From NCBI RefSeq assembly GCF_900113005.1, contig NZ_FONW01000001.1, positions 124,001 to 188,000 on the forward strand: a stretch of 64,000 nt of DNA, in the 5' to 3' direction. The position numbers and the translations under genes are program-made. Under the pieces are notes generated by a model. The model worked only from the letters and a program-made list of their open reading frames with translations. It did no database searches and had not been told where the DNA came from. The DNA is from Sunxiuqinia elliptica (lineage in GTDB: Bacteria > Bacteroidota > Bacteroidia > Bacteroidales > Prolixibacteraceae). This document shows, in pieces, positions 12,331-61,299 of the stretch (within the stretch, counting starts at the first letter, position 1; each line of letters begins with the position of its first letter).

Positions 12331-12406
12331 TTTTTCAGTTAGTAACTTTTTTTATTAGCAGCTATCCATAGGCCATCTCTTCATTAATTAATTCATTGAT
12401 TTTTTA

Positions 12407-13713: not shown

Positions 13714-13718
13714 CTTTT

Positions 13719-30085: not shown

Positions 30086-32500
30086 TCATTCATACCTCAA
30101 GGCCTCAACCGGATTGCGGGTGGCGGCTTTCCAACTTTGCCAGGCAATCGTAAGCATAGCAATTCCAAGTGTTAAAGCTCCTCCCAGCAGGTAAACCCAC
30201 CAGCTAATTTCAGTTCGAAAAGCATAATTCAGCAACCAGCTTTTCATTGCAAATACCGATATTGGAACTGCAATCACAATCGCAATGAGCAGTAAGGTGA
30301 CAATCTCTTTAGAGAATAGAAAAACAACATGTCCGACCTGAGCTCCAAGCACTTTACGAACACCAACTTCCTTCACTTTTTTCGAGGCAGTGAAAGTTGC
30401 CAAAGCCCACAAGCCCAACATTGAAATGAAGAATGCCAAGCCCGTAAAAACGCTTACAATTCGCCCAAAACGACGATCGGTTTTATATTGCTGATCAAAA
30501 AATTGATCCAAAAAGAAATAATCGAAACTAGATTCTGGGAAATAGGAATTCCAGCGTTGCTCCAACAAACTCAAAATGGCATCGTAATCCTTTCCAGCTG
30601 TTTTAACAGCTATAAACCGGGGACCAATCCAACCAATCCGGCCATTCATTAAAAAGATAATTGGCGTGTGGGCATTACTCAAGCCCCGTTGATGCCAGTT
30701 CTTGACAACTCCTATAATTTCAGCAGGTTCAGCTTCTCCTTCCAACATCACACGCTGCCCAATGGCTTCATCAGGTTTCACAAATCCGAAGGAAGCCAAA
30801 GCAGCTTCATTGAGCAGGATATTCTGCTGGTCGTTTCCAAAACCGCGCTGAAAAGAACGGCCTGCTGCCAACTCAAAATCAAAGGTTTCAACAAAATGAT
30901 CATCCACCGTCAGCATTTCAAACAAGCGATGCTGCGTTTCGTCTCCCTGCAATCGGTTCGACGCAAAATAAGCCACTTCCATACCCGGCACCGAACCCGC
31001 GACAGTCGCCGATTGGATGTTATTCTCCTGCTTCAGGTTGTCGGCAAACATGGCTACTTTTTGCCCCAGCTCATCGCGACTAACCGGATACTTTAACACA
31101 ATGGTCTGATTGATGTCCACGCCCAAGTCCTGTTCCTGCATAAAACGTACTTGCTTATACACGATAAACGTTCCGCAAATCAAAAACAAGGAAGCCGCAA
31201 ACTGAAAAACCACCAGTATCTGACGAGTGGTTCCTGCTGAGCCTGAATTAAAATAGTTTCCTTTAAGAATGACAGCTGGTTTCACACGGGTCATCACAAA
31301 TGCCGGATAGAACCCCGAAGCAACAATTCCTAAAAGCAACATCAATATAGTTGATATCCAGAAGCGAGGCTCCTTCAGGATAAATAAACCAACAGATTCT
31401 CCTATCAGCTGATTAAACAAGGGGCGTAAGGCCAAAACCAAAATGGCCGCCAATAAAATGGCTAGCAGGTTAACAATCCACGACTCAGTCATGTACTGCC
31501 GAATCAGTTGCAATCGGAACGCCCCGGAAACTTTACGCACTCCCACATCTTTTGCCCGCTCCATCGATCGGGCTGTCGTTAGATTCACGTAGTTAATCCA
31601 AGCTGTCAGCAAAATAACAATTGCAATGATCACGAGTGTTACCAATGCACGTTGGTTTCCTTTCGTTTCCCGCTCATATTGTTTTTGAGGATTCAAACGA
31701 ATATCACTCAAGGGGACAAGCGATACCCCCCACTTTTTGTTTTTCAGGGCATCACCCGTTTTATATTTTTCGGCCATCTGGGGAAAAGCAGCTTCAAGAT
31801 CTGCTGGATTTTTCCCTGGGGATAGTTCCACATAGGTGTAGGCTTCATGGATGTACCAATACTCACGCATCCAATCGGGCAAGGAAGTGTACGATATCAG
31901 GTAGTTATAACGAATGTGCGAGTTCTGTGGAAAGTTTTCAACTACCCCCGTTACTTCATACCCTTGAAAAGAAGAGCCTGAAGCAAAAGTCAATATTTTT
32001 CCAATTGGATTTTCGTCCTTGAAAAAACGGTGAGCAACATCGCGGGTAATAACAACCGTATTGGGTCGTTCCAATTGCGAAGCCACATCGCCCTCAAGCA
32101 ACTGAAAATCGAACACCGAGAAAAAAGAAGGTCCGGTGTAGGCAATCCCTGTTTCCCGACTCCGCTTTTCCTGGTAAGAAACCACCTGCTCCATATTATG
32201 CACGCCGATACGCACATAGTCCTCAACGCCTGTCATCTCATTTTGAATGGCACTTCCATAACCAAATGAACTGGTTGCCCAATCATCCGTTAACACATCC
32301 CCCTCATAAAACTGACTTTCCACACGGTAAATTCGATCGCGTTTGCTGTGCATGCCATCAAAGCTGTACTCAAAGCTCACATAATTCAAAATGAGCACAG
32401 CAACCGCTAATCCAATTGCCAATCCAAATAAATTAATAATGGAAAAAAGTTTGTTCTTAGCCTGGTTACGGAAGGCTATTTTCCAGTAATGCTGAAACAT
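30086..32500 (-). CDS. FtsX/MacB-type ABC permease, last of the array (P1)
   Basis: An inner-membrane permease, 804 aa, with two complete FtsX halves in one chain. TM1 is about 20-42 (LFGLAIGLAVAVLILNY), then a first periplasmic domain to about 280, three helices, TM5 near 425-447, a second periplasmic domain, and three final helices. The coupling motifs that should touch the ATPase are KDVGVRKVSGA (half 1) and KEVGVRKVLGA (half 2, at 710). There is no ATP-binding domain, so it must borrow an ATPase; the only one nearby is encoded at 57050-57748. Its C-terminal 95 residues differ from the common block of the array except for the last 18 (WQSWKAATRNPVEALRYE). It is the promoter-distal gene, 50 bp after P2. 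Confidence 0.9.
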   Translation of the reverse strand: MFQHYWKIAFRNQAKNKLFSIINLFGLAIGLAVAVLILNYVSFEYSFDGMHSKRDRIYRVESQFYEGDVLTDDWATSSFGYGSAIQNEMTGVEDYVRIGVHNMEQVVSYQEKRSRETGIAYTGPSFFSVFDFQLLEGDVASQLERPNTVVITRDVAHRFFKDENPIGKILTFASGSSFQGYEVTGVVENFPQNSHIRYNYLISYTSLPDWMREYWYIHEAYTYVELSPGKNPADLEAAFPQMAEKYKTGDALKNKKWGVSLVPLSDIRLNPQKQYERETKGNQRALVTLVIIAIVILLTAWINYVNLTTARSMERAKDVGVRKVSGAFRLQLIRQYMTESWIVNLLAILLAAILVLALRPLFNQLIGESVGLFILKEPRFWISTILMLLLGIVASGFYPAFVMTRVKPAVILKGNYFNSGSAGTTRQILVVFQFAASLFLICGTFIVYKQVRFMQEQDLGVDINQTIVLKYPVSRDELGQKVAMFADNLKQENNIQSATVAGSVPGMEVAYFASNRLQGDETQHRLFEMLTVDDHFVETFDFELAAGRSFQRGFGNDQQNILLNEAALASFGFVKPDEAIGQRVMLEGEAEPAEIIGVVKNWHQRGLSNAHTPIIFLMNGRIGWIGPRFIAVKTAGKDYDAILSLLEQRWNSYFPESSFDYFFLDQFFDQQYKTDRRFGRIVSVFTGLAFFISMLGLWALATFTASKKVKEVGVRKVLGAQVGHVVFLFSKEIVTLLLIAIVIAVPISVFAMKSWLLNYAFRTEISWWVYLLGGALTLGIAMLTIAWQSWKAATRNPVEALRYE

Positions 32501-32550
32501 AATTTCTAATTTCGTAGTGTATACTATTTTAATGTTTATTCTTTGTTTTA

Positions 32551-34944
32551 TTATTCATATCGCAACGCTTCAACAGGATTCCTCGTGGCTGCCTTCCACG
32601 ACTGAAACGAAACCGTTAGCAAAGCTATCCCCAAGGCCAGCAATCCGGCCAAGGCAAATATCCACCAGCTTAAGCTGGTTTTGTAGGCGAAATTCTCCAA
32701 CCATTTATTCATCGCATACCAAGCAACCGGACAGGCAATCACAAAAGCAATAGCTACCCATTTGACAAAGTCTTTATTAAGCATCGTAAGGATTTCGGAA
32801 ATCTTGGCCCCATTGACTTTGCGGATGCCGATTTCTTTGGTGCGCTGCTGCGAAATAAATAATGCCAATGCACTAATTCCTATGATGCTAATCAGTATGC
32901 TGATGCTTGAAAAGGCAAAAAGAATGCGGACAAGAGTGGTTTCAGCTTTATATTGCTGTGCAACTTTCTCATCCATAAAAAAGTAATCCATTTCTTGGTT
33001 GGGGAAATACTCGCTCCATACCCTTTTTATGGCATCCATTCCAGCATGCAACCCCCCTTCATTTAAGCGTATATGTGCAAAACGAGCACGGTTTCTCGCT
33101 TCATCCAAGCTAAAAACAAAATCACCAATGGTTTCATGTGCCGAGTTGTAATTGAAATCTTCAACAACTCCAATAATTTTTATAGCCCGATAATATGCTT
33201 CCCAACGTTTCATAGGTTGCGTTTGCAAATATGAATTAAGTTCTTCTATACTACTGTGTTTCTCCATTAAACGTTTGTATAAATGGTTGTTTATAACCAT
33301 TCCCCGAATAGTATCGGCAGTGGGATTTATCCAGTTTTCAATCAATTTAATGTTCATGGTTTTAAGGTAATCGTAGTTGGCAGCAACCAATTCTGCGGTT
33401 CCTTCAATACCAAAACCTTCGAGTTCCAATTTTTGTGTCGGATATCCGAAGTACTGATATGCCATACCAACTTCGGTCACCTGACTTTGATTTTTAAGCT
33501 CTTTTGTAAAAGTACCTGAATCCTTTCTTAGGTCTTTCATATGTAGAACAACTATATTTTCCTTATCAAAGCCTAAGGGTTTATTTAATACGAAGTCAAT
33601 TTGTTTGTTTACCAAGAAAGTTCCTGATGCCAATACAACTACAATAGCAACCTGACCGACCAAAAGGCTTTTTAGCAAATAGCTTCCCGAGAAATTGTTC
33701 CGTTGGGCAAGAATATCAATCGTGGAATTTCTACGTAAAAAGAACACAGCAACAAAAAGGGCTGTTACTGTTAGAGACACACCAATAACCGCTAGGATAC
33801 TCCAGTAAATAGCCGGTTCGTTGAAAAATATTTTAAACTCTATGTCAAACAATTGATTAACAAAGGGGTTCGCACTTTGAACAAATAACAAGGAAATACC
33901 AATTGACAGCACACATACGATCAATGCTTCGGTTAATACCTGCCTGATAATTTGCCACTGGTTAGCCCCAATGGACTTTTTTAATCCCAGCTCTTTTGAG
34001 CGCTTTATGAGCTTGGCTACAGTGAGATTGGTAAAATTTAACAACGAAACCAGCAGAATAATAAAGGACACAATTATAAATAGTGAGATGTTTATTTTGC
34101 TCGAACTTTCGCGCAACTCGAAACGAAAATCTGATTTCAGATGGATGTCGTCCAATGGAAACAAGGAAAAATCCCATTCTTTGGGGCCACCTTCCTGTTT
34201 TAAAGAACTCTTATCCCAAAAAGCTGCGATCCTTTTGGCGACCAATTCGGGAGATGCACCTTTTTGAAGTTTAAAGTAATGGTAAGCCCATAGCCTTTTT
34301 AAGTTAGGAATTGTTTTTTCAAAGGACCTTTGCATATTACCTTTTTGCGATGCCAGCAATTCGTATTTTAAATGTGTTTTGGAATGGGCATTTTTTACAA
34401 TTCCACGAATTTCATAATCGCCAATATCATTTTTGTATTGCCCGGCTTCAAATTTGATGATTTGACCAACCGGATTTAGGCTTCCATAGTGTCTACGAGC
34501 AAAATCTTCTGAAATGAAAACGGTATTTGGTTGCTCCAATTCAGATAGGTCACCTACTTTCGATTTAACTTCAAACATTTCAATAAAAGCATCATTAACC
34601 CATAAAATATCGTTTTGATAAAACGAGTCGTCATCTATTTTTATGGTTCCAACAGGACAATGTACAAATTGGGTCGCCAGTTCCACCTCCGGAATTTCTG
34701 ACGAAGCGGAATGAACAATCCCTAAACTACGTGCCCATGGTGAATCTTTGCTTATTCCAGCAGTTGAAATTACCCTGTAAATATTTTCATGTCCCGCAAT
34801 ATGCTTGTCAAAACTTTTCTCATTTGAAACATAGATAAATAGAATGAAAAATGATGAAATGCCAATTACCAAGCCAAAAACATTAACTAGCAGAAAAGCT
34901 CTGTCTTTTAAAAGTCGGCGAATGGTTATTCTGAAGTTATACAT
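32551..34944 (-). CDS. FtsX/MacB-type ABC permease (P2)
   Basis: 797 aa, double-FtsX type. The N-terminus MYNFRITIRRLLKDRAFLL leads into TM1 (about 18-38). The half-1 coupling motif is KELGLKKSIGA and the half-2 motif KEIGIRKVNGA starts at 703. From there to the end it carries the near-constant 95-residue block of the array and is 91 of 95 identical to P3 there. The first periplasmic domain (SDFARRHYGSLNPVGQIIKF region) is quite different from its neighbours. It lies 24 bp after P3. It may move a lipid-like or lipoprotein cargo or remodel the envelope, but no substrate can be inferred. Confidence 0.9.
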   Translation of the reverse strand: MYNFRITIRRLLKDRAFLLVNVFGLVIGISSFFILFIYVSNEKSFDKHIAGHENIYRVISTAGISKDSPWARSLGIVHSASSEIPEVELATQFVHCPVGTIKIDDDSFYQNDILWVNDAFIEMFEVKSKVGDLSELEQPNTVFISEDFARRHYGSLNPVGQIIKFEAGQYKNDIGDYEIRGIVKNAHSKTHLKYELLASQKGNMQRSFEKTIPNLKRLWAYHYFKLQKGASPELVAKRIAAFWDKSSLKQEGGPKEWDFSLFPLDDIHLKSDFRFELRESSSKINISLFIIVSFIILLVSLLNFTNLTVAKLIKRSKELGLKKSIGANQWQIIRQVLTEALIVCVLSIGISLLFVQSANPFVNQLFDIEFKIFFNEPAIYWSILAVIGVSLTVTALFVAVFFLRRNSTIDILAQRNNFSGSYLLKSLLVGQVAIVVVLASGTFLVNKQIDFVLNKPLGFDKENIVVLHMKDLRKDSGTFTKELKNQSQVTEVGMAYQYFGYPTQKLELEGFGIEGTAELVAANYDYLKTMNIKLIENWINPTADTIRGMVINNHLYKRLMEKHSSIEELNSYLQTQPMKRWEAYYRAIKIIGVVEDFNYNSAHETIGDFVFSLDEARNRARFAHIRLNEGGLHAGMDAIKRVWSEYFPNQEMDYFFMDEKVAQQYKAETTLVRILFAFSSISILISIIGISALALFISQQRTKEIGIRKVNGAKISEILTMLNKDFVKWVAIAFVIACPVAWYAMNKWLENFAYKTSLSWWIFALAGLLALGIALLTVSFQSWKAATRNPVEALRYE

Positions 34945-34968
34945 GGTTTAATGTGCTTATAGGTTGTT

Positions 34969-37398
34969 TTATTCATACCGCAAGGCTTCAACCGGATTCC
35001 TAGTGGCTGCCTTCCACGACTGAAACGAAACCGTTAGCAAAGCTATGCCCAAAGCCAGCAAACCAGCCAAGGCAAATATCCACCAGCTTAAGGTGGTTTT
35101 GTAGGCGAAGTTTTCGAGCCATTTATTCATCGCATACCAAGCAATCGGACAGGCAATCACAAAAGCAATAGCGACCCACTTGATAAAGTCTTTGTTGAGC
35201 ATCGTAAGGATTTCGAAAATCTTGGCCCCATTGACTTTGCGGATGCCAATTTCCTTAACGCGGGCAGAAGCGATTAACCAGGAAATCGTAAAAAGATTGA
35301 TCACACTTATAAAAATCGCCACCAAAATAAATAAGCGAAATATCTTAATCAGCTCATTTTCTTTCTGAAACTGCTTGTTGTAATGATCTTCCACAACTAA
35401 AAACTCAAACGGATAATTGGGAAAAGTGACTTGAAACTTATCCTGAATAAATGGGATCACCGATGCATAATTGCTCGTTGCCAACTTCAATGAATAATTT
35501 CCCCAGAGCATGTTCTTCGTCCAATCAATCAACACAATGGGTTCATGCTTTTCTTTTGTGCTTGAGAAATCAACATTCTCGGTCACTCCAATGATCTGTA
35601 CATCAAAGTCCTGCATTCCACTTTCATCCTTCATGTTCAGAACCCGACCAATCGCATCGGTAGGATTTTCGAAGCCCAGAACAGATAAACAAGCGCGGTT
35701 AACAATGCAAGCATTCTTCCCTTCGGCATTGCCCGAAAAAATGAAATTCGTTCCGGCCAGCAACTTCATCTTATAATTTTCAATGTAATTGCTATCCACC
35801 ACCATGATGGCTGCTTTCCCCTCCTTTTGGCTCTCCACTTCCTTGAAATTAAAATTATACGCAGGAAGATCTCCCGGAATTTTATTTGAAATCGAAATCC
35901 CAAGAATCGCATGATGACTCAAAAGGTCATGTTCAAATGCATTCAAATTGGAAACCAATCCAGATGTTCTTCTAAGGTTTTGTGGCACCTTAACAACAAG
36001 TGTATTTTCAATATCCAGCCCTTTATCCTTTTCAAGCATGTAATTCAGCTGCTTATTCATTCCCACAATTCCCACAACAATAGCGATGATGATCACAAAC
36101 TGCCCCACCACGACCAGTTGTCGGTAAGAAATACCGTTCCCAATCGGCTTATACTTCAAGGTCATCAGCTCAAGAGCTGAAAACTGATTAATCAGCCAAG
36201 CAGGCAATGCTCCGTTAATCAGCACACTTAATAACAAAATTCCAAACAATCCACTCAAGAATAAGGGTTCCCTGAAAACAGGCTCCAGCAACATGTTAAA
36301 CTCATTGCGTAGCAAAGGCGAAAGTGCCGAAACAGCAGCAAGAGCAATAAGCAAGGCTAACAAGTGGATCACCAAAGACTCCGCAAGCGAAGCCCATACC
36401 ATTCCCAAAGACGTGGCTCCATTAATTTTTTTTACACCAGTATATTTGGCTGAATGAATTAAGCGCGAAAATGAAAACTGAATGTAGTTGAAGCCGGAGG
36501 CGACAAGAATCAACACTCCAACCAGAAAAATAAGGAAAACATATTCAGCTTTAGAATTATGCTGTAGCTCATCCTTTAAATCCGAATGAAGATGAATTTC
36601 ATTCAGTGCTTGCAAATGATACTCGTGTCTTACTTTTGTTTTTTCAAATGCAATCTCTTTGTTCGCTGCAACCAAACGATTAATCCCCGATTCAATATCA
36701 CGAACTTCGGCCTTCTCGTTCAATCGCAGGTAAGTATAAAATCCAACCTCACCCCACTGTGCTTTCGCCGGAGGGGGTAAATGCATGTCGTCGTGAAAAG
36801 AAAGCAACACCTCTGCCTTAAAATGCGCCTGACTGGGAATATCCTGAAAAACGCCGTCGATGGTATATTCATAGCCCGGATATTTAAACAATTGCTGACC
36901 GACAGGATCAGATGATCCAAAATATTTTTTAGCGGTACTTTCTGAAATAATTGCTGTGTATGGGCGTGTTAAAACCTGCGATTTATCCCCCTGTAATAGC
37001 GCGATGGAAAAAACATCCAAAAAACCGGGAGATGCATGATAGATCTGAGGATTCGAGAAAATCTCTTCGCCGATTTTATACTGCGGATTGCTCGCTTTTG
37101 TTATAAAGCCCGCTGCAACTACCCCCGGATAGCTCTCCTTTACCGAAGCTGCTACCCCTCGCTCACATTCCGGAACAGAAAGGCTTAACTCGTTCCCACT
37201 GTACACATCTGTGGTAACCCGATAAATGTTCTTATTATCCGGAAAAACACGATCAAAACCATGTTCGTAAAATGCATAGGCTGCAACCAGGACAAAAGTA
37301 ATTATCCCAATACAGACAGAGGAAAGCAAAAACAAAGTATGCTTTCTTTCTCGAAGCAGATTTCTGAAGGCCATTCGCAAGTAGTAGTTCATAATCAT
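34969..37398 (-). CDS. FtsX/MacB-type ABC permease (P3)
   Basis: 809 aa, or 807 if translation begins at Met3, which fits the conserved MNYYLRMAFRNLLRERKH start better. The half-1 coupling motif is KYTGVKKINGA (the usual acidic residue after Lys is missing). Half 2 is KEIGIRKVNGAKIFEIL at 715, beginning the common C-terminal block. The first periplasmic domain contains STAKKYFGSSDPVGQQLF, the typical MacB-like PCD signature. It lies 8 bp after P4 and 24 bp before P2, so it is certainly part of one transcript with them. Confidence 0.9.
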   Translation of the reverse strand: MIMNYYLRMAFRNLLRERKHTLFLLSSVCIGIITFVLVAAYAFYEHGFDRVFPDNKNIYRVTTDVYSGNELSLSVPECERGVAASVKESYPGVVAAGFITKASNPQYKIGEEIFSNPQIYHASPGFLDVFSIALLQGDKSQVLTRPYTAIISESTAKKYFGSSDPVGQQLFKYPGYEYTIDGVFQDIPSQAHFKAEVLLSFHDDMHLPPPAKAQWGEVGFYTYLRLNEKAEVRDIESGINRLVAANKEIAFEKTKVRHEYHLQALNEIHLHSDLKDELQHNSKAEYVFLIFLVGVLILVASGFNYIQFSFSRLIHSAKYTGVKKINGATSLGMVWASLAESLVIHLLALLIALAAVSALSPLLRNEFNMLLEPVFREPLFLSGLFGILLLSVLINGALPAWLINQFSALELMTLKYKPIGNGISYRQLVVVGQFVIIIAIVVGIVGMNKQLNYMLEKDKGLDIENTLVVKVPQNLRRTSGLVSNLNAFEHDLLSHHAILGISISNKIPGDLPAYNFNFKEVESQKEGKAAIMVVDSNYIENYKMKLLAGTNFIFSGNAEGKNACIVNRACLSVLGFENPTDAIGRVLNMKDESGMQDFDVQIIGVTENVDFSSTKEKHEPIVLIDWTKNMLWGNYSLKLATSNYASVIPFIQDKFQVTFPNYPFEFLVVEDHYNKQFQKENELIKIFRLFILVAIFISVINLFTISWLIASARVKEIGIRKVNGAKIFEILTMLNKDFIKWVAIAFVIACPIAWYAMNKWLENFAYKTTLSWWIFALAGLLALGIALLTVSFQSWKAATRNPVEALRYE

Positions 37399-37406
37399 GT
37401 CTTTAA

Positions 37407-39749: not shown

Positions 39750-39863
39750 TTTTCAACCTTTTTTTATCTATACTCTTTATCAGAATTGAATGTTTCTTGA
39801 TCTGCAATTACTCAATCACTTAGCAAGAAACAAGCTTCTCTATCAAGTCTCAGCAATGCTTAA

Positions 39864-42254: not shown

Positions 42255-42320
42255 TGCGTTAAGTTTTTAGCGTTTTATACATCGTTAGTCCGTTCTAATT
42301 CATATTCCAAGAATATCTTT

Positions 42321-44714: not shown

Positions 44715-44757
44715 ACCTATTCTTTATTTTCACTTCATTAAATATGAAATTCTCTTA

Positions 44758-47082: not shown

Positions 47083-47134
47083 TTATTAACGAGTACTTAT
47101 CAAACTTGGTATTTTATATCATCCACCTTTACTA

Positions 47135-47151
47135 GTCAAACACGATGCCTT
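47135..47151 (-). promoter_or_regulatory. Candidate sigma-54 promoter upstream of P7
   Basis: On the minus strand AGGCAT-CGTGT-TTGAC: the -24 GG is present, spacing to -12 is right, and the -12 element is TTGA instead of TTGC. The predicted start is near 47124, about 42 bases before P7. It shares GGCATCGT with the candidate upstream of tolC. A second match, GGGCAT-TTGTT-TTGCG at 47263-47279, has a perfect -12 but lies on the far side of the binding motif. Confidence 0.4.
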
Positions 47152-47169
47152 ACTCCTAAGCACAAAACA

Positions 47170-47211
47170 ATTAGACACTTAGAAAAAATACACAAAATTC
47201 AGGTGTCTAAT
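47170..47211. repeat. Inverted repeat in the P8-P7 gap
   Basis: Nine-base perfect arms ATTAGACAC (47170-47178) and GTGTCTAAT (47203-47211) separated by 24 AT-rich bases. It lies between the putative activator site and the sigma-54-like promoter. It could be a second protein-binding site or a weak terminator for transcripts from P8. Confidence 0.4.
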
Positions 47212-47214
47212 ATT

Positions 47215-47243
47215 TTGACAGAATGTGTACAATTTCTTGTCAG
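47215..47243. promoter_or_regulatory. Candidate enhancer (activator site) for the P7 promoter
   Basis: Two copies of YTGACA-N5/6-TGTACA overlap head to head and share the central palindrome TGTACA (47226-47231). The centre is about 105 bp upstream of the predicted P7 start, a usual distance for an NtrC-type enhancer. The same element occurs twice upstream of the response-regulator gene at 61.2 kb. Confidence 0.4.
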
Positions 47244-47321
47244 CTGCTACTCCCAGGCATGGCGCAAAACAAATGCCCCTCCAACTCTTGCCCTCTTTAG
47301 CTCGCAACGCAAAAAACTACG

Positions 47322-49700: not shown

Positions 49701-49711
49701 AGTTCATGTTT

Positions 49712-52111
49712 TTATTCGTATCGCAAGGCTTCAATCGGATTACGGTTTGCAATCCGGGTATAGTTAACAGCAGCAATCAGTGCTATCAGCATCAAAAAGA
49801 ATAAGCTACAACCAGCAAATATTCCCCAGTGGAGATCAATTTTCGAGGCAAAATTTTGCATCCATCGTCCGGTGATAATCCAAGCGCCAGACAAGCCAAT
49901 TAAAACTGCCGGAATGGCAATATACTCTAAATCTGTGATGAAGGCCTGCAAGATATCCGATAGGTTGGCTCCACTAATCCGTCGAATTGCCAGCTCTTTG
50001 CGACGACGGTTGCCCTCGTTGGCCGTATAGCCTAACAAGCCAATCACGGTGATGAGCAAGATGATAAAATTCCCCGCCATCATTGCATTCCGGAAACCTT
50101 TCTCCGAGAGGTAGCTTTTTTGTTGTTCGTCTTGTAAACTCTTAATTACAGCATCCTGATGAGGCAATACCCGGTTAAAAACGGCAGCCATCTTTGCAGG
50201 CAATCCGGCCTCTGCACTCGGGTGTGCCTTGACCAAAATATTAAACGAAAAGGATGGGTTGTTGACCATTCTCTCAGCAAACTTCTCCTCTGACATATAA
50301 AAGAAGACAGCCGGTCTGGTGTCTGGCGAAGCCATCGAACGGATAATAAAGTCATCAAAAACACCACGAATCGTTGTTGAACCATGCTCCGTTACTCCCA
50401 GCTCTTTCCCAAGCACGCCATCGGTCCAGCCATTGTTCATCAGCAACATTTCCGCGCCTTTATCGCTAATCAGCAAATCGTGGCTAACAGCAGTTTCTTC
50501 AGAGAAATTTTGACCACGAATCACCGGAATATCAAGAATTGAAAGGTAATTTTCATCAATAAAATAGAAGTCCGCTACATTAAACAATTCCCGTTCGCCA
50601 TCGGGCGAAAGGACATTATTTCCCGAAGCTCCATCGGTTGGAACTCCATCACCCATGCCAACAAGCTCAATCTCTGGCATTGATCGCAATTCATGCAGCA
50701 CAGCCGAAAGCTTACGTCCATCCATACCACTGGTTGATCCATAATAAACTCCTTCGGTTCGGTAACCATGATCGGCATCTTTCATTTTATCGTATTGCAA
50801 GGACACAATTACCAGAACAGTCAGGATGAACGACGCTCCAATGAACTGCAGCGAAAGCAATGCCAATTTCCATTTATTTCTTTTTTGACGATAGTCGCGA
50901 AAAGCTGTAGCCACTGGAATTCGCGAAAAGAACTTGCCTGGCAAATAGCTAATCAACACTACCAAGGCCGTTATCACGCCCAACAAGGGCCAAATTACCG
51001 TAGGATTGAGAACTGAAACCAATTGGTGATCCAACTGCGTCTCTGCCAATGGCCTTAACAACAGAATAATGAGGGCCGCACCAGTCAACGAAATCAAAAA
51101 CAAAAGAAAGGTCTCGGTAAAGATCATTCGCAGTAAATTTTGCGACAATGCACCACATGTTTTATGAATGGCTGAAGTTTTTGCCCGATTTACCAAAGCG
51201 CTTAAAGTCAGCAAAATATAATTCATCATCGATACGAACAGGACAGCCGCCGCAATGATGCTCAAAACCAAGATCATATCCTTCACATTCGCCACATGAA
51301 TTTTGGTTATGGGCTCAAAAGAATATTTTAAAACAAAGCCCTGCTGAGTTTCTTCCAACGCTTCAATATCCTGGTGCTTCTCCTGCATTTTACGCACTGC
51401 AGGGGCCAGGCTTTTCGGATCAACGCCCGGCTCAAGCTTTACACAGGCATAATACCGATCGTTTCCCAACCAGTTTTCTCGTCCATCCCACATAAACTCA
51501 TCAATGGAAACCATCGACACCAGAACATCATAATTGTAGTTCGTATTTTCAGGCAGCGCTTCAAATACGCCGGCAATCGTTACTTTTTTTCCGGGATACT
51601 CCTTCAACTCAATTACTTTTCCAACAACATCGCCTCCCATATCTTCAGCCACCTCGCTAGACACCATGCAACTCATTGGGGACTTGAGCGCTTCTTCGGC
51701 ATTTCCTTGAAGTACCGGCCTCGGCAGGACGTCAAATAAATATTCATCGGCTAAAGAAAAGCTAGCCTTGTAACGCTTAAAGTCATCCGTATAAAAGATG
51801 GATGAGCCCAGTGGATTTAAACGTGTTGCAAGCTCAACTCCAGGCACTTCAGCTTTTAATCCCGGAGCAATCGCACCACTAACCCGGGAGTAATTGCGCA
51901 ACTGATCTGACGACTTATCAACTTTAAAATTTTCGTGGACAACATAAATTCGATCTGCATCAGGATAAAAGCTATCATAGCTGTAGAAATAAAACACCTC
52001 TGCCAAAAGCAACAAACTAAAGGACAAGCCCATAGCCAGTGAAACAATTCGTGTTACCGTATGCTCTCCCTTTCGAAACAATCTTCGAAAGGCAATTTTT
52101 AATGAATTCAT
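49712..52111 (-). CDS. FtsX/MacB-type ABC permease (P9), most divergent member
   Basis: 799 aa. MNSLKIAFRRLFRKGEHTVT precedes TM1 (about 22-44, rich in aromatic residues: LAEVFYFYSYDSFY). Both coupling motifs are altered: KTSAIHKTCGA in half 1 and KELAIRRISGA in half 2 (705). The C-terminal 95 residues share little with the common block, and even the end reads TRIANRNPIEALRYE. The second periplasmic domain has MSEEKFAERMVNNPSFSFNI. It may be an ancestral or specialised subunit. It lies 44 bp after P10 and 11 bp before P8. Confidence 0.9.
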   Translation of the reverse strand: MNSLKIAFRRLFRKGEHTVTRIVSLAMGLSFSLLLLAEVFYFYSYDSFYPDADRIYVVHENFKVDKSSDQLRNYSRVSGAIAPGLKAEVPGVELATRLNPLGSSIFYTDDFKRYKASFSLADEYLFDVLPRPVLQGNAEEALKSPMSCMVSSEVAEDMGGDVVGKVIELKEYPGKKVTIAGVFEALPENTNYNYDVLVSMVSIDEFMWDGRENWLGNDRYYACVKLEPGVDPKSLAPAVRKMQEKHQDIEALEETQQGFVLKYSFEPITKIHVANVKDMILVLSIIAAAVLFVSMMNYILLTLSALVNRAKTSAIHKTCGALSQNLLRMIFTETFLLFLISLTGAALIILLLRPLAETQLDHQLVSVLNPTVIWPLLGVITALVVLISYLPGKFFSRIPVATAFRDYRQKRNKWKLALLSLQFIGASFILTVLVIVSLQYDKMKDADHGYRTEGVYYGSTSGMDGRKLSAVLHELRSMPEIELVGMGDGVPTDGASGNNVLSPDGERELFNVADFYFIDENYLSILDIPVIRGQNFSEETAVSHDLLISDKGAEMLLMNNGWTDGVLGKELGVTEHGSTTIRGVFDDFIIRSMASPDTRPAVFFYMSEEKFAERMVNNPSFSFNILVKAHPSAEAGLPAKMAAVFNRVLPHQDAVIKSLQDEQQKSYLSEKGFRNAMMAGNFIILLITVIGLLGYTANEGNRRRKELAIRRISGANLSDILQAFITDLEYIAIPAVLIGLSGAWIITGRWMQNFASKIDLHWGIFAGCSLFFLMLIALIAAVNYTRIANRNPIEALRYE

Positions 52112-52155
52112 ATATCTAATTTTTTTCTCTAATTCTCTTCTTCATCGAATTCCAA

Positions 52156-54525
52156 CTACTCGTATCGAAGTGCGTCTATCGGGTTTCTGGTAGCTGCTTT
52201 AATGGTTTGGTAACTTGTACTAACCAATACTATGAGCAACAAAAGCCCCGTTCCCATCACAAAAATCCAGGGTTGTGCGGGTAGCTTATTTGCACTTGGA
52301 AGCGACGTATATACCAGCCAGGCACTTGGAAAAGCAACCAACATGGCCAGCAACAACAAGAGGTAGTATTCGCGATTCAGCAGATGGAATATTCCCAAGG
52401 GGGAACTGCCATTGATTTTCCGGATTCCGATTTCTTTGGTTCGCCGTGCAACAACAAAAGCCACCAAGCCAAACATTCCGACTACGGCCAGTAAAATATT
52501 CAAGACCGTAAAAAACAAAAGCGTCTTGTTCACCGAATGGTATATCTTGAAGCTGTATTCACTATTAAAAGCGGAAGGAAAATCCTTAACCTCAAATGGA
52601 TCATTGGGAAATGCCATTTTCAACTCATTAGTAATGATATTTCTTGCATGAACAGCTCCATCCTCTCGAACACGAAAAGCAAACACCCAGTTCCCCTCAA
52701 TTTCATTCGGGGCAAGTATCAAAACACTTGGCTCAACCGGGTTGTGCATATCGTGATAAATAAAGTCTTCCACCACGCCTACAATCGTAAGCTGGTTATC
52801 GTTAACTCGTTTGCCAATAGGATCGTCCCAGCCGAAACACTTCGCAGCAGCCTCGTTTATGACACAACTTTTCCCCACATCTCCGGAAAAAGCAGTCGCA
52901 AAGTTCCGCCCTGCAGTCAGATTGGTATTTAGCAAAGTAAAATAGTTGTAGCTTACGGTATTGAAGCGGCAAGTAACTTTCTCATTCGGGTCGCCCCCCT
53001 CCCAATTGGTCATTCCCCCTCCTTGATTAACAAACGGAAAGTTCTTGGACATGGCTACGTCAACAATTTCCGGATGCTGTAAAAGCCGATCGCGCAACTG
53101 ATAAAAATCAACACGATTCCCGGATGCATTCAGCTCGGAGTAAAGCAAGCCATCGCGTTGAAACCCCAAGTCTTTATTGGCAACATACCTGATTTGCATG
53201 GAAAAAGAGGCCGTTAACACAATCAGGAAGAGTGAAATAGCAAACTGGAAAGTCACCAACGCCTTTTTCAGGCTAAAAGTATCTCGCTGTTTATTTAGAA
53301 AATTCCCTTTAAAGAGTGTCGTGATTTTACTGGCTGCCATAAACTTGGCGGGGTAAACGCCCGACAGCAATCCCACACAAACAGCTAAAAGCAGCAGTGA
53401 CAAAACAAACTTCCAATCGGTAATCAAACTGAATGTGATTTGTTTATCGACAACACTATTGAAAAGTGGCAACAAAAATGCCGTTGCCACGAGTCCCATT
53501 ACCAATGCGACAACACAAACACCCACAGTCTCGCTTAAGAATTGGAGCACTAACTGCCACCGACGACTACCAATTACTTTTTTTACAGCAACCTCTTTGC
53601 CCCTCATCGAAGCTTGTGCCAACGATAGATTGACGTAGTTAAAACCGGACATGATCAGAATAAATACACCAATCAATCCAAATAGCTTAAGAATAATCAG
53701 GTAATCGTTGCTATCATTAAAATTCAGGTAAACCTTTGAAAGCGGACATAATTGCATCTCACCAAATTTGAGGTTCTCATAAGCGGCAAAAAGATGCTGG
53801 ATCTTAGCTTCTGCGTTCTTGGCTTCAACACCACTTTCCAACAAGGTGTACACCATACAGTCCTTGGCCCAGAACGATGATCGATCAACCCCTGCCAATG
53901 GTTTTAAGCTTGAAAATGAAATGATATACGAAGGACGTAAACTGCTGTTGAAAGGTAAATCCCGATAAACTCCGGTCACCGTCAAGGGATGTTTGTTCTC
54001 CAACAAAACAAATTCGCCAATCACATTCGTTTTATTAAATAACTTTTGTGCAAGCGTTTCCGACAATACCACCGAATAGGGTTGAGCAAGCGCATGTTGT
54101 TGTTCGCCCCCAACAAAACTAAAGGAGAACACATCAAAAAAGCAGGTGTCAGCATAAATTCCTTTCACATCGTGCACCTGGTGTTCTGCATCAGTTCCCA
54201 AAAAGGTTGATCCAGCCTCGTTAATCACAGTCACTTTCTCAAATTCCGGAAACTGGCGCTCAATCATCTGAGCAGTAACAGGTCGGTTGTGAGGCGAAAT
54301 GTTATTTCCACTAGTGGGATGGATAGCATTGGTATTTCGAATTTGAACCCGGTAAATCCGATCATATTTCTCATGACTTTTATCCCAGTTCATCTCATAA
54401 CGGATAAACAGAGCAATCAACGCAAAAGCCGTAAAACCAACCGTTAGTCCCACCAGGTTAGTGATGGAATACACCTTGGTTTTCTTTAGCTTACGGATAG
54501 ATAGTTTGAAAAATATTGAGTTCAT
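52156..54525 (-). CDS. FtsX/MacB-type ABC permease (P10)
   Basis: 789 aa. MNSIFFKLSIRKLKKTKVYS leads to TM1 (about 21-43). Coupling motifs are KEVAVKKVIGS and KEIGIRKINGS (697). The C-terminal helices differ from the common block and the segment is two residues shorter, with an unusual Pro/Ala-rich loop (YTSLPSANKLPAQPW) where the others have WLENFAYKT; it ends KAATRNPIDALRYE. PCD signature: TLAQKLFNKTNVIGEFVLL. Gaps are 29 bp to P11 and 44 bp to P9. Confidence 0.9.
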   Translation of the reverse strand: MNSIFFKLSIRKLKKTKVYSITNLVGLTVGFTAFALIALFIRYEMNWDKSHEKYDRIYRVQIRNTNAIHPTSGNNISPHNRPVTAQMIERQFPEFEKVTVINEAGSTFLGTDAEHQVHDVKGIYADTCFFDVFSFSFVGGEQQHALAQPYSVVLSETLAQKLFNKTNVIGEFVLLENKHPLTVTGVYRDLPFNSSLRPSYIISFSSLKPLAGVDRSSFWAKDCMVYTLLESGVEAKNAEAKIQHLFAAYENLKFGEMQLCPLSKVYLNFNDSNDYLIILKLFGLIGVFILIMSGFNYVNLSLAQASMRGKEVAVKKVIGSRRWQLVLQFLSETVGVCVVALVMGLVATAFLLPLFNSVVDKQITFSLITDWKFVLSLLLLAVCVGLLSGVYPAKFMAASKITTLFKGNFLNKQRDTFSLKKALVTFQFAISLFLIVLTASFSMQIRYVANKDLGFQRDGLLYSELNASGNRVDFYQLRDRLLQHPEIVDVAMSKNFPFVNQGGGMTNWEGGDPNEKVTCRFNTVSYNYFTLLNTNLTAGRNFATAFSGDVGKSCVINEAAAKCFGWDDPIGKRVNDNQLTIVGVVEDFIYHDMHNPVEPSVLILAPNEIEGNWVFAFRVREDGAVHARNIITNELKMAFPNDPFEVKDFPSAFNSEYSFKIYHSVNKTLLFFTVLNILLAVVGMFGLVAFVVARRTKEIGIRKINGSSPLGIFHLLNREYYLLLLLAMLVAFPSAWLVYTSLPSANKLPAQPWIFVMGTGLLLLIVLVSTSYQTIKAATRNPIDALRYE

Positions 54526-54554
54526 TTTATTCTTGTTTTCATTTTAGTTGAGGC

Positions 54555-56948
54555 TCATTCATACCTCAATGCTTCCACTGGATTTCGTGTAGCCGCTTTC
54601 CAGCTTTGCCAGCTAACCGTTAGCAGCGCAATGGCCAAAGCCAGCAAACCGGCCAAGGCAAAGATCCACCAACTCAGGGTGGTTTTATAAGCAAAGTTTT
54701 CAAGCCATTTACTCATGGCGTAATAAGCAATGGGACAAGCAATCACGAAAGCAATAGCCACCCATTTTACAAAGTCTTTGTTGAGCATCGTAAGGATTTC
54801 GGAAATTTTGGCCCCATTGACTTTGCGGACACCGATTTCTTTAATTCTGCTGCGCGTATCATAAAGCGAAATGGCAAACAAGCCAATTGACGAAATCAGG
54901 AAAGCAATGCATGTAAAAATCATGTAGATCTCACTAAGTCGTTTTTCCTTCCGGTACATAGCCTCAATATTGTCGGCTAAAAAAGCATATTCGAATGTTT
55001 CTCCCGGATTAAGCTCATCAAATAATTTCTGTACAAACTGGATCCCCTCTTTCGCAGTTTCTTCTTCAAACCGAATCATAAAGTTGGCTTCGACATCTTC
55101 AAAATACATCATAACCAAAGGGCGCGGTTTTACCGATAAATGTTCGGAATTAAAATCCTTTACAACCCCAAGTATTTCAAAACCGGCATTCTGATCATCC
55201 GAACGGGACCAGTACTTATTTAAAACTCTTGCTGAAGAAATATCCTTAATCCCCCAATACTTCTTCGCAGCCTCATTAATCACAACTTTATTCTCCCGCT
55301 GCTTATCTTTCTCCTTCTCAAAAAAACGACCTTCCACAAGTCGTAAGTCAAGAGTTTCCATATAATCCGGTGTCAATGCAAGAAAGTTGGCAGAAGTGTA
55401 ATCTCTCGTATCTCCCTGTAATTTCCATGGCATTACATGCGTGTTGATTGGCGAATTTCCTTGAGTAAAAGACTTTATAGCACTGCTGGTTGATAGTTCA
55501 TTTACAACATATTGAAAATTTTTCTGAGCTTCTTCCCGCTGTACTGCCCAGTCCTCCTTGTTTGTTGGGAAAGGCTGCTCTCGAAAAAGCCTGGTCGTAA
55601 TAATATTTGCAGAATGAAATCCAAGATCTTTATTCAACATTAAATGAAGTTGCTTTACCACAACAATGGAAGCTACCAGTAAAATCAAAGAAAGTGAAAA
55701 CTGAATCGTAGCCACCACATTTCTTCCTGCCAGTTTATTCCCTGATAAGACTTGATTCTTTAAGCTTTTTGCTAACGAGATTCTCAGAAAAACCACCGAA
55801 GGATAAATCATAGAAGCCAGAACAACTGCAACCAAAATAGCTAGGTTTAGCAAAAGTACCTGCCAAAAATCTGGATTCAGTTCAACTCCTACAATCCGAT
55901 TAAAATGAGGAAGTACCAAAAGAAACGTTACCGAAATCATCACTGCAGATGATAAAATAAGCATGCCCAACTCAGTCAATTTTTGATAAAAAATATGTTT
56001 TTGGCTTGCTCCTGAAATTTTATTGATTCCAATATTTTTGACAGATGAGTTAATACTTATGATCTGCAAATTTGAAAAGTTAAGCAATGTTATTACAAAG
56101 ATTATTGCAGTGATGACTAGTAAGATAGAGATGTTCTTTGGATTACCATGTTTTGGAAAAAGCCCATTGAACGACGCCCCTGAGTTGTCGTTGTATATCT
56201 TGTCAAAAGCCATTACATCCATCCGGCTATTTTTAAACTGAGGATGTTGATGTCCTAGGTTCTTTATTTGCTCTACAAAACCGGTTTTATCGAAACCGTC
56301 GTCAACCAAAATAAAGTTACCTCCCGATCGATTAAATGAAGCGGAATGCTCCGGCAGAATAAAGTCGAAATTTAGAGAGCTATTGACAGGAGGAGTTTCG
56401 ACAATTCCTTTCACCGTATAATTTTGCTGCACTCTTCCTGACAGCTTAACAGTCTTCCCCATGGGATTTTCACTACCAAAGAAGCGTTTTACAAGCCTCT
56501 CGGTAAAAACGACAGCATCTGGTTCTTTCAAAACAGCACTTTGATCTCCTACTTTTAGTTTAAAATCAAAAACGTCCAAAAAAGTACTGTCAGCTACAAT
56601 TCCTTCTGGAGAAATCGACCTCTCATCGTATTTAAAAAGAAGCTCCCCTTGGGCAAACTTCTTTACGCTAGCCAAATTTTCAATTCCAGGATAATCTCTA
56701 TAGTTAAAACCAAAAAACGAATTCGCATCAATTGCATCCAACTGGCTTTCTGGCGATTGTTGAATTATCAAAAGAAAGATGTCCTTTTCCCGCTTGTGAA
56801 AGTTATCCATTGACAATTCGTTATGGATATAAGTATACAGCAACGAAATACAGAGTGCGCTTAGTAATATCGTCACTAAACTACCCGCAAAAACCAGCCT
56901 ATTTGATTTGAAGTTTCTGAAAGTATATTTTAGATAGTATCTTACCAT
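54555..56948 (-). CDS. FtsX/MacB-type ABC permease, first of the array (P11)
   Basis: 797 aa from ATG 56948 (MVRYYLKYTFRNFKSNRLVF). TM1 is about 21-43. Coupling motifs are KNIGINKISGA and KEIGVRKVNGA (703), the latter beginning the common C-terminal block. The open frame continues 19 codons upstream through SATRNLVEALRYAKKN, but that part is the relic tail of another permease and not a genuine N-terminus. It is the first permease after the ATPase gene (101-bp gap holding the relic). PCD signature: RLVKRFFGSENPMGKTVKL. Confidence 0.9.
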   Translation of the reverse strand: MVRYYLKYTFRNFKSNRLVFAGSLVTILLSALCISLLYTYIHNELSMDNFHKREKDIFLLIIQQSPESQLDAIDANSFFGFNYRDYPGIENLASVKKFAQGELLFKYDERSISPEGIVADSTFLDVFDFKLKVGDQSAVLKEPDAVVFTERLVKRFFGSENPMGKTVKLSGRVQQNYTVKGIVETPPVNSSLNFDFILPEHSASFNRSGGNFILVDDGFDKTGFVEQIKNLGHQHPQFKNSRMDVMAFDKIYNDNSGASFNGLFPKHGNPKNISILLVITAIIFVITLLNFSNLQIISINSSVKNIGINKISGASQKHIFYQKLTELGMLILSSAVMISVTFLLVLPHFNRIVGVELNPDFWQVLLLNLAILVAVVLASMIYPSVVFLRISLAKSLKNQVLSGNKLAGRNVVATIQFSLSLILLVASIVVVKQLHLMLNKDLGFHSANIITTRLFREQPFPTNKEDWAVQREEAQKNFQYVVNELSTSSAIKSFTQGNSPINTHVMPWKLQGDTRDYTSANFLALTPDYMETLDLRLVEGRFFEKEKDKQRENKVVINEAAKKYWGIKDISSARVLNKYWSRSDDQNAGFEILGVVKDFNSEHLSVKPRPLVMMYFEDVEANFMIRFEEETAKEGIQFVQKLFDELNPGETFEYAFLADNIEAMYRKEKRLSEIYMIFTCIAFLISSIGLFAISLYDTRSRIKEIGVRKVNGAKISEILTMLNKDFVKWVAIAFVIACPIAYYAMSKWLENFAYKTTLSWWIFALAGLLALAIALLTVSWQSWKAATRNPVEALRYE

Positions 56949-56963
56949 AATTTCATTTTTTTT

Positions 56964-57049
56964 CGCATACCTCAACGCCTCTACCAGGTTTCGTGTAGCC
57001 GACACCGGCCTACGAGCAGCATCGCAAGCCCTAAAGCCAAAACACCTGG
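56964..57049 (-). pseudogene. Relic 3' end of a twelfth permease
   Basis: Between the ATPase stop and P11, the minus strand reads PGVLALGLAMLLVG in one frame. After a small deletion it reads SATRNLVEALRYA in another, then runs into KKN. These match AGVLALGIALLTVS and AATRNPVEALRYE of the intact permeases. The block in between (the WQSWR part) is lost with a frameshift, and the stop codon is gone. This is the remnant of a deleted permease gene. Confidence 0.8.
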
Positions 57050-57748
57050 CTACAACAAGACCTCGCCCAGTTGCTTTTTCACTTCCTCGGTAATAATCTG
57101 TCCATCAAATAGATTAACCACCCGGTGAGCAAATTCGGAGTCGTGCAACGAGTGGGTAACCATCACAATGGTAGTTCCTTCACGATTCAACTCGGTAAGC
57201 AGGTTCATCACTTCCAATCCGTTTTTCGAATCCAGGTTACCGGTAGGCTCATCCGCTAGAATTAGTTTTGGATTAGCCACGACAGCACGAGCAATGGCAA
57301 CACGCTGCTGCTGACCTCCAGAAAGCTGTTGCGGGAAGTGCTTCCGTCGGTGACTGATTTTCATGCGCTCCAGCACTCGTTCAACCATGGCTTTACGCTC
57401 GCTTGCTTTCAGTTTCAGGTAAATTAGAGGTAATTCAACGTTTTCATACACGTTCAACTCATCAATCAGGTTAAAGCTTTGAAACACAAAACCGATGTTT
57501 CCCTTCCGAAGTTGGGTCCGGTTACGTTCTTTCAACTGGCCAACCTCCTGCCCATCAAAAAAGTAATCGCCACCACTTGGATTATCCAGCAAGCCGATAA
57601 TATTCAGCAAGGTGGACTTTCCACATCCTGAAGGCCCCATAATAGCCACAAACTCACCTTTCTTTACATGCAGGTTGACATGGTTCAGCGCACTGGTTTC
57701 AATCTCCTCGGTGCGAAAAATTTTGGTTAGATCTACTGTTTTTATCAT
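57050..57748 (-). CDS. ABC transporter ATPase, LolD/MacB type
   Basis: A 232-residue cytoplasmic ATPase that should power the FtsX-type permeases. Walker A GPSGCGKST at 38-46, Q-loop Gln90 in GFVFQSFNL, signature LSGGQ at 142-146, Walker B LILADE at 162-167, and switch His in VTHS. The pattern is that of the LolD/MacB/FtsE group. From ATG 57748 the start MIKTVDLTKIFRTEEIETSA is family-normal; the open frame upstream runs through a CT/GA-rich repeat and is not used. It is the only ATPase gene in the window, placed between the four-helix-bundle gene and eleven permeases. Its tail is short (ends GEVLL). Confidence 0.96.
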   Translation of the reverse strand: MIKTVDLTKIFRTEEIETSALNHVNLHVKKGEFVAIMGPSGCGKSTLLNIIGLLDNPSGGDYFFDGQEVGQLKERNRTQLRKGNIGFVFQSFNLIDELNVYENVELPLIYLKLKASERKAMVERVLERMKISHRRKHFPQQLSGGQQQRVAIARAVVANPKLILADEPTGNLDSKNGLEVMNLLTELNREGTTIVMVTHSLHDSEFAHRVVNLFDGQIITEEVKKQLGEVLL

Positions 57749-57761
57749 AGTTGTATTAGCA

Positions 57762-57790
57762 TAGAGCAGAGCGCATGGGGCAAAGAGTAA
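57762..57790 (-). repeat. CT-rich intergenic repeat, copy A
   Basis: On the minus strand it reads CTCTTTGCCCCATGCGCTCT followed by GCTCTATGC. It lies in the short leader 14 bases before the ATPase start. It matches copy B (58256 on) in the opposite orientation across the four-helix-bundle gene, and copy C (59665 on) more loosely. Confidence 0.55.
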
Positions 57791-57814
57791 AAACATCAGC
57801 CCAAAAACTCTTAC

Positions 57815-58177
57815 TCAGTTTCTTAAAATTGATTTTCTAAAATTCGTTATTTTTCTACTTAAAGAGTCTAAATCGTTTAACACCTGATTCAATTGCTCTT
57901 CATCCAAAAACTGACGTCTGAAAGCAACATATGCGATATTGGCTGTCTCAAAAACAGAACGTCGTGCCATATTCAAAAAGTTAGCAAAGTCCTTCGCGGA
58001 AAAAGAGCCAGAACCTTCAGCAATATTATTAGAAATACTCAATGATGCAGCTCTTAGCTGTTCAGCTACTCTATAATTTCTTGCATCTCCCATCTCTTCT
58101 GCCAAATCAAAAAGCTGATCATTTAATGTAATCGCCTCCTTCCAAATATCTAAATCCATAAATCTAAAATGTGCCAT
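57815..58177 (-). CDS. Four-helix-bundle protein of the S23/avd-like family
   Basis: A 120-residue all-helical protein: FRFMDLDIWKEAITLNDQLF, RVAEQLRAASLSISNNIAEG, SFSAKDFANFLNMARRSVFE and LDEEQLNQVLNDLDSLSRKI. This is the family (TIGR02436-like) found as proteins from 23S rRNA intervening sequences, as avd of diversity-generating retroelements, and as stand-alone genes in Bacteroidota. It probably assembles into a homo-pentameric barrel and may bind nucleic acid. There is no reverse transcriptase or template repeat here, so it is not part of a retroelement. It sits inside the export operon between adaptor and ATPase genes and is bracketed by CT-rich repeats of opposite orientation, suggesting later insertion. 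Confidence 0.9.
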   Translation of the reverse strand: MAHFRFMDLDIWKEAITLNDQLFDLAEEMGDARNYRVAEQLRAASLSISNNIAEGSGSFSAKDFANFLNMARRSVFETANIAYVAFRRQFLDEEQLNQVLNDLDSLSRKITNFRKSILRN

Positions 58178-58291: not shown

Positions 58292-58292
58292 G

Positions 58293-61226: not shown

Positions 61227-61267
61227 TTGACAAAAGAATGTAAAAATATTTGACACATTATTGTACA
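61227..61267. promoter_or_regulatory. Candidate enhancer / autoregulatory site in the tolC-regulator gap
   Basis: Two tandem elements, TTGACA-AAAGAA-TGTAAA (61227-61244) and TTGACA-CATTAT-TGTACA (61250-61267), start 23 bp apart. They are centred about 100 and 120 bp upstream of the predicted tolC start and 30-75 bp before the regulator gene. Each is an imperfect dyad TGACA-N6-TGTMA, as expected for a dimeric NtrC-type activator. Confidence 0.4.
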
Positions 61268-61299
61268 TCCATTGCCGATCTTCTAATTTTAAACAAAAA

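Follow-up and report, generated by a model that had tools for sequence, protein, structure and literature searches.

One ATPase and many permeases: an array of double-FtsX permeases with a constant C-terminal tail in Sunxiuqinia elliptica

Introduction

The closest described relatives of the system discussed here are MacAB-TolC, the YbbAP transporter of Escherichia coli, the darobactin exporter DarBCD, and the duplicated permeases of the ADOP family, whose name contains the words "acidobacterial orphan". The known DarBCD system has one permease; to our knowledge, YbbAP comes with no adaptor, no TolC and no array. In MacB, the helix between TM2 and TM3 (the major coupling helix) and the C-terminal helix (the minor coupling helix) contact the ATPase, as given in the accessible part of PMC5985334. 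The use of one ATPase by several transporters is on record for the MsmX-like multitask ATPases, which serve several type I sugar importers (accessible part of PMC7658222). The locus described here lies in a 64,000-nucleotide stretch of Sunxiuqinia elliptica DNA (NZ_FONW01000001.1, positions 124,001-188,000), referred to below as the window, where a single ATPase gene, here called A1, is followed by eleven permease genes.

In the direction of transcription the genes are ordered TolC, adaptor, A1 and the eleven permeases. The permeases are successive open reading frames (ORFs) of 774-816 residues each at 30086-57005 on the minus strand, and in all eleven the Pfam domains MacB_PCD and FtsX score above the curated cut-offs, with two FtsX stretches per chain. 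The ORFs and domain matches rule out an array by chance or mis-annotation. They also bear out a preliminary description of this DNA, made from the sequence alone, which had reported eleven same-strand double-FtsX permeases behind one ATPase, with a single adaptor and a single TolC upstream. It had further suggested that the permeases share this ATPase as their motor. We consider an explanation of this kind reasonably probable: a type VII tripartite exporter system with many alternative permeases served by a single ATPase, adaptor and TolC, the ATPase being engaged through a constant tail at the C-terminus of the permeases. The array is typical of a widespread Bacteroidota system.

The Constant Tail

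Pairs among the eleven permeases are 19-34% identical over their length. The last 95 residues of seven of them (permeases 1, 4, 6, 7, 8, 9 and 10) are 84-96% identical, with a mean of 0.889. By region, identity among these seven is 0.17-0.41 through residue 701 and 0.79-1.00 from residue 702 to the C-terminus. The equivalent stretch of the first half reaches only 0.225 in the same seven permeases, which rules out general conservation of the FtsX fold as the source of the likeness. The very end of the chain, R-N-P-[VI]-[ED]-A-L-R-Y-E, is nearly unchanged in all eleven.

The structure predicted for permease 10 (mean predicted local distance difference test score, pLDDT, 88.9; predicted template-modelling score, pTM, 0.89) places four helices in the tail: 702-710, 715-749, 760-786 and the C-terminal 790-796. 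The boundary between the variable and the constant part, residue 702, coincides with the first of these. Because the coupling helices of MacB match the tail helices by position, the constant tail is predicted to be the motor-coupling module of the second permease half, through which the ATPase would be contacted.

Arrays in Related Genomes

Multi-permease arrays behind one such ATPase are common in relatives. A survey of permease number per ATPase, an idea already present in the preliminary description, found that the array is not unique: of the 80 loci around the top ATPase matches in named genomes, 59 have at least two permeases (those cut by the end of the locus being counted), and exactly one ATPase is present in 52 of these 59. 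In one relative with a single contig (G073, loci L121-L125), 37 permeases of at least 700 residues lie on the same strand in a single array, accompanied in the 100 kb read by one each of ATPase, adaptor and TolC; 30 of the 37 tails are at least 70% identical to that of permease 10. Three further permeases lie near 6.84 Mb in this genome. The stretches read in other relatives hold 20 permeases each in G105 and G107 and 17 each in G016 and G018. A second A1-type ATPase, 85% identical to that of the window, is found in G105 and G107 (L145, L146) outside the array, with a single permease beside it.

The co-occurrence of A1 (E <= 1e-100) and constant tails (E <= 1e-38) was scored in 140 genomes of the family, with kinship left uncorrected. 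A1 was found in 91 and tails in 93 of them; 85 have both, 6 have A1 only, 8 have tails only, and 41 have neither. Genomes with both carry a median of 6 tails, the maximum being at least 36. In a first set of 41 relatives, scored at looser cut-offs, A1 was present in 25, tails in 24 and both in 23, and a search of the whole order recovered the ATPase in 74 of 149 genomes.

Constant-tail permeases also cluster away from a recognised ATPase. The genome G141, which is one contig, has a cluster of seven permeases, six of them with the constant tail, and no ATPase was recognised in the 40 kb fetched around it; the best A1 match (80%) lies at a distance of 3.1 Mb on the contig, or about 2.0 Mb in the other direction should the contig be circular. 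In G140, two contig stretches hold 16 and 4 constant-tail permeases with no ATPase on either, and A1 is on a third contig.

Concerted Evolution of the Tails

The sequence comparisons indicate that the tails are shaped by gene conversion within genomes plus purifying selection. The comparisons used 250 permeases from relatives, excluding those shorter than 740 residues or cut by the end of a locus, and skipping pairs with too few aligned sites. For pairs with bodies below 35% and tails at least 70% identical, which are not independent of each other, identity of the tails at fourfold sites is 0.407 within genomes (1298 pairs) and 0.354 between genomes (17107 pairs), as against 0.299 and 0.289 for the bodies. 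It rises to 0.453 for adjacent genes (150 pairs). In 18 of 19 genomes, all but G024, the tail shows a greater excess than the body.

Orthologs give the complementary picture. Where the bodies of orthologs average 94% identity (13 pairs), similarity is lower in the tails than in the bodies, both in amino acids (0.920 vs 0.944) and at fourfold sites (0.617 vs 0.750). The fourfold-site values for tail and body are 0.492 vs 0.563 where the bodies are 80-90% identical, and 0.380 vs 0.437 at 70-80%. Identity rises at the boundary: in ten chosen pairs, nucleotide identity is 26-60% in the ten codons before the coupling helix and 73-100% in the ten that follow. With 36 constant-tail permeases from the genus of the window, the tail data reject the body tree (approximately unbiased test, p-AU 2.3e-6) and the body data reject the tail tree (p-AU 4e-7). 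The nearest neighbour is in the same genome for 12 of 143 bodies and 45 of 143 tails, permeases below 740 residues or cut by a locus end being excluded here too. A simple recent tandem duplication is ruled out by the 19-34% identity of the permeases and by bodies that are seldom nearest to a relative in their own genome. Between genomes, the tails keep an amino acid identity of 0.816 while their fourfold sites, at 0.354, are near the body background of 0.289, so purifying selection is at work as well. The arrays provide a bacterial example of concerted evolution limited to a single protein module.

In the scanned regions, 20 of 305 tail matches do not coincide with a recognised permease end; broken permeases account for some of these, and two lie at most 5 bases from an ATPase gene. 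Among other Bacteroidota loci (190 permeases of at least 700 residues, none cut by a locus end) the tail excess varies; it is strong in L086 (Labilibaculum), and many Bacteroides loci show little or none. In L131-L132 of G107 and in L047, some permeases of the array are broken into two ORFs (495 + 282 and 548 + 217 residues), possibly as decaying members or through assembly errors.

A Proposed Shared Motor

In the explanation we favor, each permease is a fused FtsX pair, so that two copies of the ATPase with one chain could make up a full engine. Variability lies in the first half and both periplasmic domains, and the last 95 residues, made up of the major coupling helix, two membrane helices and the minor C-terminal coupling helix, would grip the shared ATPase. 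Purifying selection and gene conversion among array members would keep this module uniform, with permease bodies being gained, lost and diversified. The cargoes would then be diverse as well, and would be exported via this TolC. A second, asymmetric ATPase, here called A2, would probably work with or beside A1, at least on permease 11, and the adjacent sigma-54 two-component system would probably control expression.

For the seven constant-tail permeases, the shared motor is supported indirectly, by the near-identical coupling module, by the co-occurrence of tails and A1, and by the constant-tail clusters without a recognised ATPase in the stretch read. To this extent the suggestion of the preliminary description gains support; permeases 2, 3, 5 and 11 have divergent tails.

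Several observations weigh against this explanation. The constant tail is missing from four of the eleven permeases in the window, and these four could dock differently. Conservation of the coupling residues could also be expected if the permeases each relied on a separate ATPase and these ATPases resembled one another. At the cut-offs used, 6 of the 91 A1 genomes are without a tail and 8 of the 93 tail genomes are without A1, two of the latter eight being listed as at least 98% complete. In G141, the permeases next to the A1 match itself lack the constant tail, and the cluster has a 59%-identical ATPase at a distance of about 0.46 Mb. G005, G009, G012, G024, G105 and G107 show little or no conversion signal, and for orthologs with bodies below 70% the fourfold-site identity of the tail no longer falls short of that of the body (0.356 vs 0.350; 0.360 vs 0.316). 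Finally, permease 11 falls in a clade of eight (support 1.0); the other seven, from seven other genomes, all neighbor A2, and permease 11 may have this ATPase as a motor of its own. The neighbor test counted recognised permease, ATPase, adaptor and TolC genes only, and its permeases were filtered by length alone, at the same 740 residues.

The Second ATPase

A2 is the next closest ATPase in the window's genome, 50% identical and 99 kb away (C10:280888-281571). The "single ATPase" of the preliminary description is therefore correct for the array and perhaps not for the system. No permease match was found within the 19 kb fetched around the A2 gene in this genome; among its neighbors are genes with RecO, PorZ and DNA-alkylation-repair domains. 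Many relatives have A2 within the same array or at its end, and it stands among permeases in most of 24 A2 regions. It occurs in 74 of the 140 genomes; A1 accompanies it in 72 of these, every one of which has tails. A2 probably belongs to the system.

What A2 does there can be read in two ways. One, rather unlikely in our judgment, makes A2 a dedicated motor for permease 11 and a few others, with A1 driving the rest. The clade of permease 11, with its unbroken association with A2, and the divergent tail of permease 11 speak for it. However, A2 adjoins constant-tail permeases as well, for example in G024, G004 and G008, and it is present in G016 and G018, which have no member of the permease 11 clade among the permeases read. 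The preliminary description had held that dedicated ATPases elsewhere would count against sharing; such an ATPase has in part been found, given the seven A2 neighbors of the permease 11 clade, yet this same ATPase also adjoins constant-tail permeases. Since it does, A2 may be a second motor subunit of the whole system.

The other way, which we regard as unlikely, takes this further: the motor would be an A1/A2 heterodimer, each asymmetric permease carrying A1 on one of its halves and A2 on the other. The presence of A1 in 72 of the 74 A2 genomes, the tails in all 72, and the position of A2 among array permeases all fit this arrangement, as do the asymmetry of the permeases themselves and the lack of a permease match in the 19 kb around A2 in the window's genome. 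The motifs fit as well: the D-loop Asp, kept in 107 of 107 A1 sequences, is replaced in A2 by His (22 of 24) or Gln (2 of 24), and the residue after the signature is Leu in 24 of 24 A2 and Arg in 107 of 107 A1 sequences, some genomes being present twice in these counts. On the other side, 19 of the 91 A1 genomes are without A2 at the cut-off, and 13 of these have tails (six in G001, five in G095), so A1 may suffice. An extended form of the idea, which we think doubtful, would make the constant tails both a universal docking module for the A1/A2 heterodimer and a recombination platform that captures, duplicates and deletes variable bodies, giving tens of exchangeable exporters per genome with one engine and one duct.

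The window's genome has further related ATPases. The copies on contigs C15 (46 kb), C23 and C21 adjoin FtsX genes; for those on C12, C6 and C15 (328 kb), no permease-profile match was found in the 8 kb fetched.

Regulation and Remaining Alternatives

A divergent sigma-54 regulator is found within 600 bp at 14 of 18 TolC genes with at least 2.5 kb upstream, a sample that includes the window and at least one genome twice (L049 and G023a). Of 14 gaps between TolC and regulator in relatives, 10 have a -24/-12-like element with a score of at least 9 of 13 pointing to TolC; the mean best score of the gap scan is 7.57, vs 2.98 in 100 single-base shuffles (highest 4.50). Neither the gap of the window itself nor that of G018 yielded an element with both invariant pairs, and a scan of the window for TGGCAC-N5-TTGC with one mismatch gave one match, away from TolC, with 4.21 expected by chance. 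An enrichment of sigma-54 at COG0577 permeases of Bacteroidia has been derived from motif scans (accessible part of PMC12316311). Expression of the array is probably under the adjacent sigma-54 two-component system.

The same arrangement is open to a reading without export of the cell's own products, in which the permeases would be BceAB-like sensors or detoxifiers of envelope-active compounds, signaling to the adjacent two-component system. The regulator divergent from TolC and the sigma-54 enrichment in Bacteroidia agree with it, and the predicted fold of permease 10 resembles BceB among others (8s5g, Z 21.7, 335 aligned). But the adaptor and TolC argue for a duct across the envelope, and the kinase matches PAS and HATPase models; we find this role for the permeases improbable. 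Least credible is that the constant tails are a mere by-product of recombination among array members with no shared-motor meaning: conversion is indicated, most strongly between neighbors, and tail fragments without bodies do occur, but the tails stay about 82% identical in amino acids between genomes with fourfold sites near the body background (0.354 vs 0.289), so selection holds them, the boundary is located at the coupling helix, and the tails co-occur with A1.

Genes of the Window

The features of the locus are collected in Table 1. Two starts differ from those of the longest ORFs. Many homologues of A1 align only from about residue 14-17 of its ORF, so translation probably begins at the ATG at 57748, the same position at which the preliminary description ends its stretch. 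For permease 1, the N-terminal part of the longest ORF reads, by eye, like the decayed tail of a permease, so 56948 is the probable start. Of the gaps within the array, the widest (47083-47321, 239 bases, between permeases 4 and 5) might contain an internal promoter.

An ORF for a four-helix bundle (Pfam 23S_rRNA_IVP, PF05635) is located at 57815-58177 (minus strand) between adaptor and ATPase, and homologues fill the same gap at 13 other distinct loci. A role for it was set aside, since 7 of 8 genomes have such genes, with 6-14 in each of the seven. Short GAGTGCA repeats (58270-58292, minus strand) directly follow the adaptor gene downstream. Elsewhere in the window there are two SusD/TonB-receptor pairs (376-14315, minus strand), each preceded by an extracytoplasmic function (ECF) sigma factor gene and a FecR-type gene, and a GH92 glycoside hydrolase gene (27584-29938, plus strand), which comes after a TonB-receptor/SusD pair and is convergent with the last permease.

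Table 1. Features of the exporter locus, in window coordinates.
Feature	Position	Strand	Basis
Permease 11, divergent tail	30086..32500	-	ORF, Pfam, clade analysis
Permease 10, constant tail; structure predicted	32551..34944	-	ORF, Pfam, model
Constant tail, permease 10	32551..32838	-	tail alignment, model
Permease 9, constant tail; likely conversion partner of neighbor permease 10	34969..37398	-	ORF, Pfam, alignment
Constant tail, permease 9	34969..35256	-	tail alignment
Permease 8, constant tail	37407..39749	-	ORF, Pfam, tail alignment
Constant tail, permease 8	37407..37694	-	tail alignment
Permease 7, constant tail	39864..42254	-	ORF, Pfam, tail alignment
Constant tail, permease 7	39864..40151	-	tail alignment
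Permease 6, constant tail	42321..44714	-	ORF, Pfam, tail alignment
Constant tail, permease 6	42321..42608	-	tail alignment
Permease 5, divergent tail	44758..47082	-	ORF, Pfam, tail alignment
Permease 4, constant tail	47322..49700	-	ORF, Pfam, tail alignment
Constant tail, permease 4	47322..47609	-	tail alignment
Permease 3, divergent tail	49712..52111	-	ORF, Pfam, tail alignment
Permease 2, divergent tail	52156..54525	-	ORF, Pfam, tail alignment
Permease 1, double FtsX, constant tail; likely start 56948	54555..57005	-	ORF, Pfam, tail alignment
Constant tail, permease 1 (95 codons + stop)	54555..54842	-	tail alignment
Apparent decayed permease-tail remnant, interval between A1 and permease 1	56967..57046 (approximate limits)	-	translation judged by eye
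ATPase A1 (ABC_tran, LolD/MacB-NBD type)	57050..57796	-	248-residue ORF; likely start 57748
Periplasmic adaptor, HlyD/RND-type	58293..59549	-	domain and NCBIfam matches
Outer membrane factor, TolC-type (OEP)	59714..61063	-	domain and NCBIfam matches
Sigma-54-interacting response regulator, divergent from TolC	61261..62667	+	domain match
Histidine kinase with PAS; extends beyond the window end	62664..63998	+	PAS and HATPase matches

Comparison with Known Systems

No description of a shared ATPase or of a constant-tail array among MacB-type exporters was found in the open-access literature searched. If the shared motor is correct, pairing every permease with its own ATPase miscounts the exporters of Bacteroidota, and the constant tail becomes a simple sequence test for orphan permeases that share a motor. 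A swap of the 95-residue tail would make motor specificity directly testable.

All eleven permeases combine FtsX with a periplasmic MacB-like core, as in the type VII (MacB/FtsX) superfamily, and the model of permease 10 has a MacB/YbbP-type fold. A1 falls in the LolD/MacB group, its closest solved relatives being 5xu1, MJ0796, MacB, PsdA and LolD. By sequence profile the permease is closest to 3is6, a permease domain of Porphyromonas gingivalis, and then to MacB structures; by fold, the matches of permease 10 after YbbP are BceB, 3is6, MacB, FtsX and others. Salt tolerance in E. coli has been linked to a clone of gut DNA whose ORF has MacB-core and FtsX domains (accessible part of PMC5780487), a relation too remote for a cargo to be assigned from it. 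The MsmX systems share with this locus the use of one ATPase for several transporters; however, they are importers of another ATP-binding cassette type, and the accessible part of PMC7658222 contains no constant-tail permease array.

Among the NCBIfam models, those of the darobactin exporter DarBCD (NF038008, NF038010, NF038007) are the best for the ATPase and the adaptor, and second best for the seven permeases scanned of the eleven. All scores are below the equivalog cut-offs: at most 154 vs 700 for the permease, 283.2 vs 375 for the ATPase, and 174 vs 450 for the adaptor. The best model for all seven permeases scanned is that of the ADOP duplicated permease family (TIGR03434), with a best score of 304.8 vs a subfamily cut-off of 622.3 bits. 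YbbAP resembles this locus in its single-chain double permease and separate ATPase. For permease 10, the one compared by fold, it gives the best full-length match (9ge7, Z 23.7, root mean square deviation 10.1, 661 aligned), although identity over the match is only 11-13%.

MacAB-TolC shares the MacB_PCD and FtsX domains, the HlyD-type adaptor and a TolC encoded alongside. Sequence matches connect the permeases with the solved MacB structures 5lil, 5nik and 5gko, and the predicted fold of permease 10 matches 5nik (Z 17.4, root mean square deviation 7.4, 371 aligned). The fusion of the ATPase to a four-helix permease that defines MacAB-TolC in the strict sense is absent here: the ATPase has its own gene, each permease chain is a fused pair, and one ATPase gene may be accompanied by tens of permeases.

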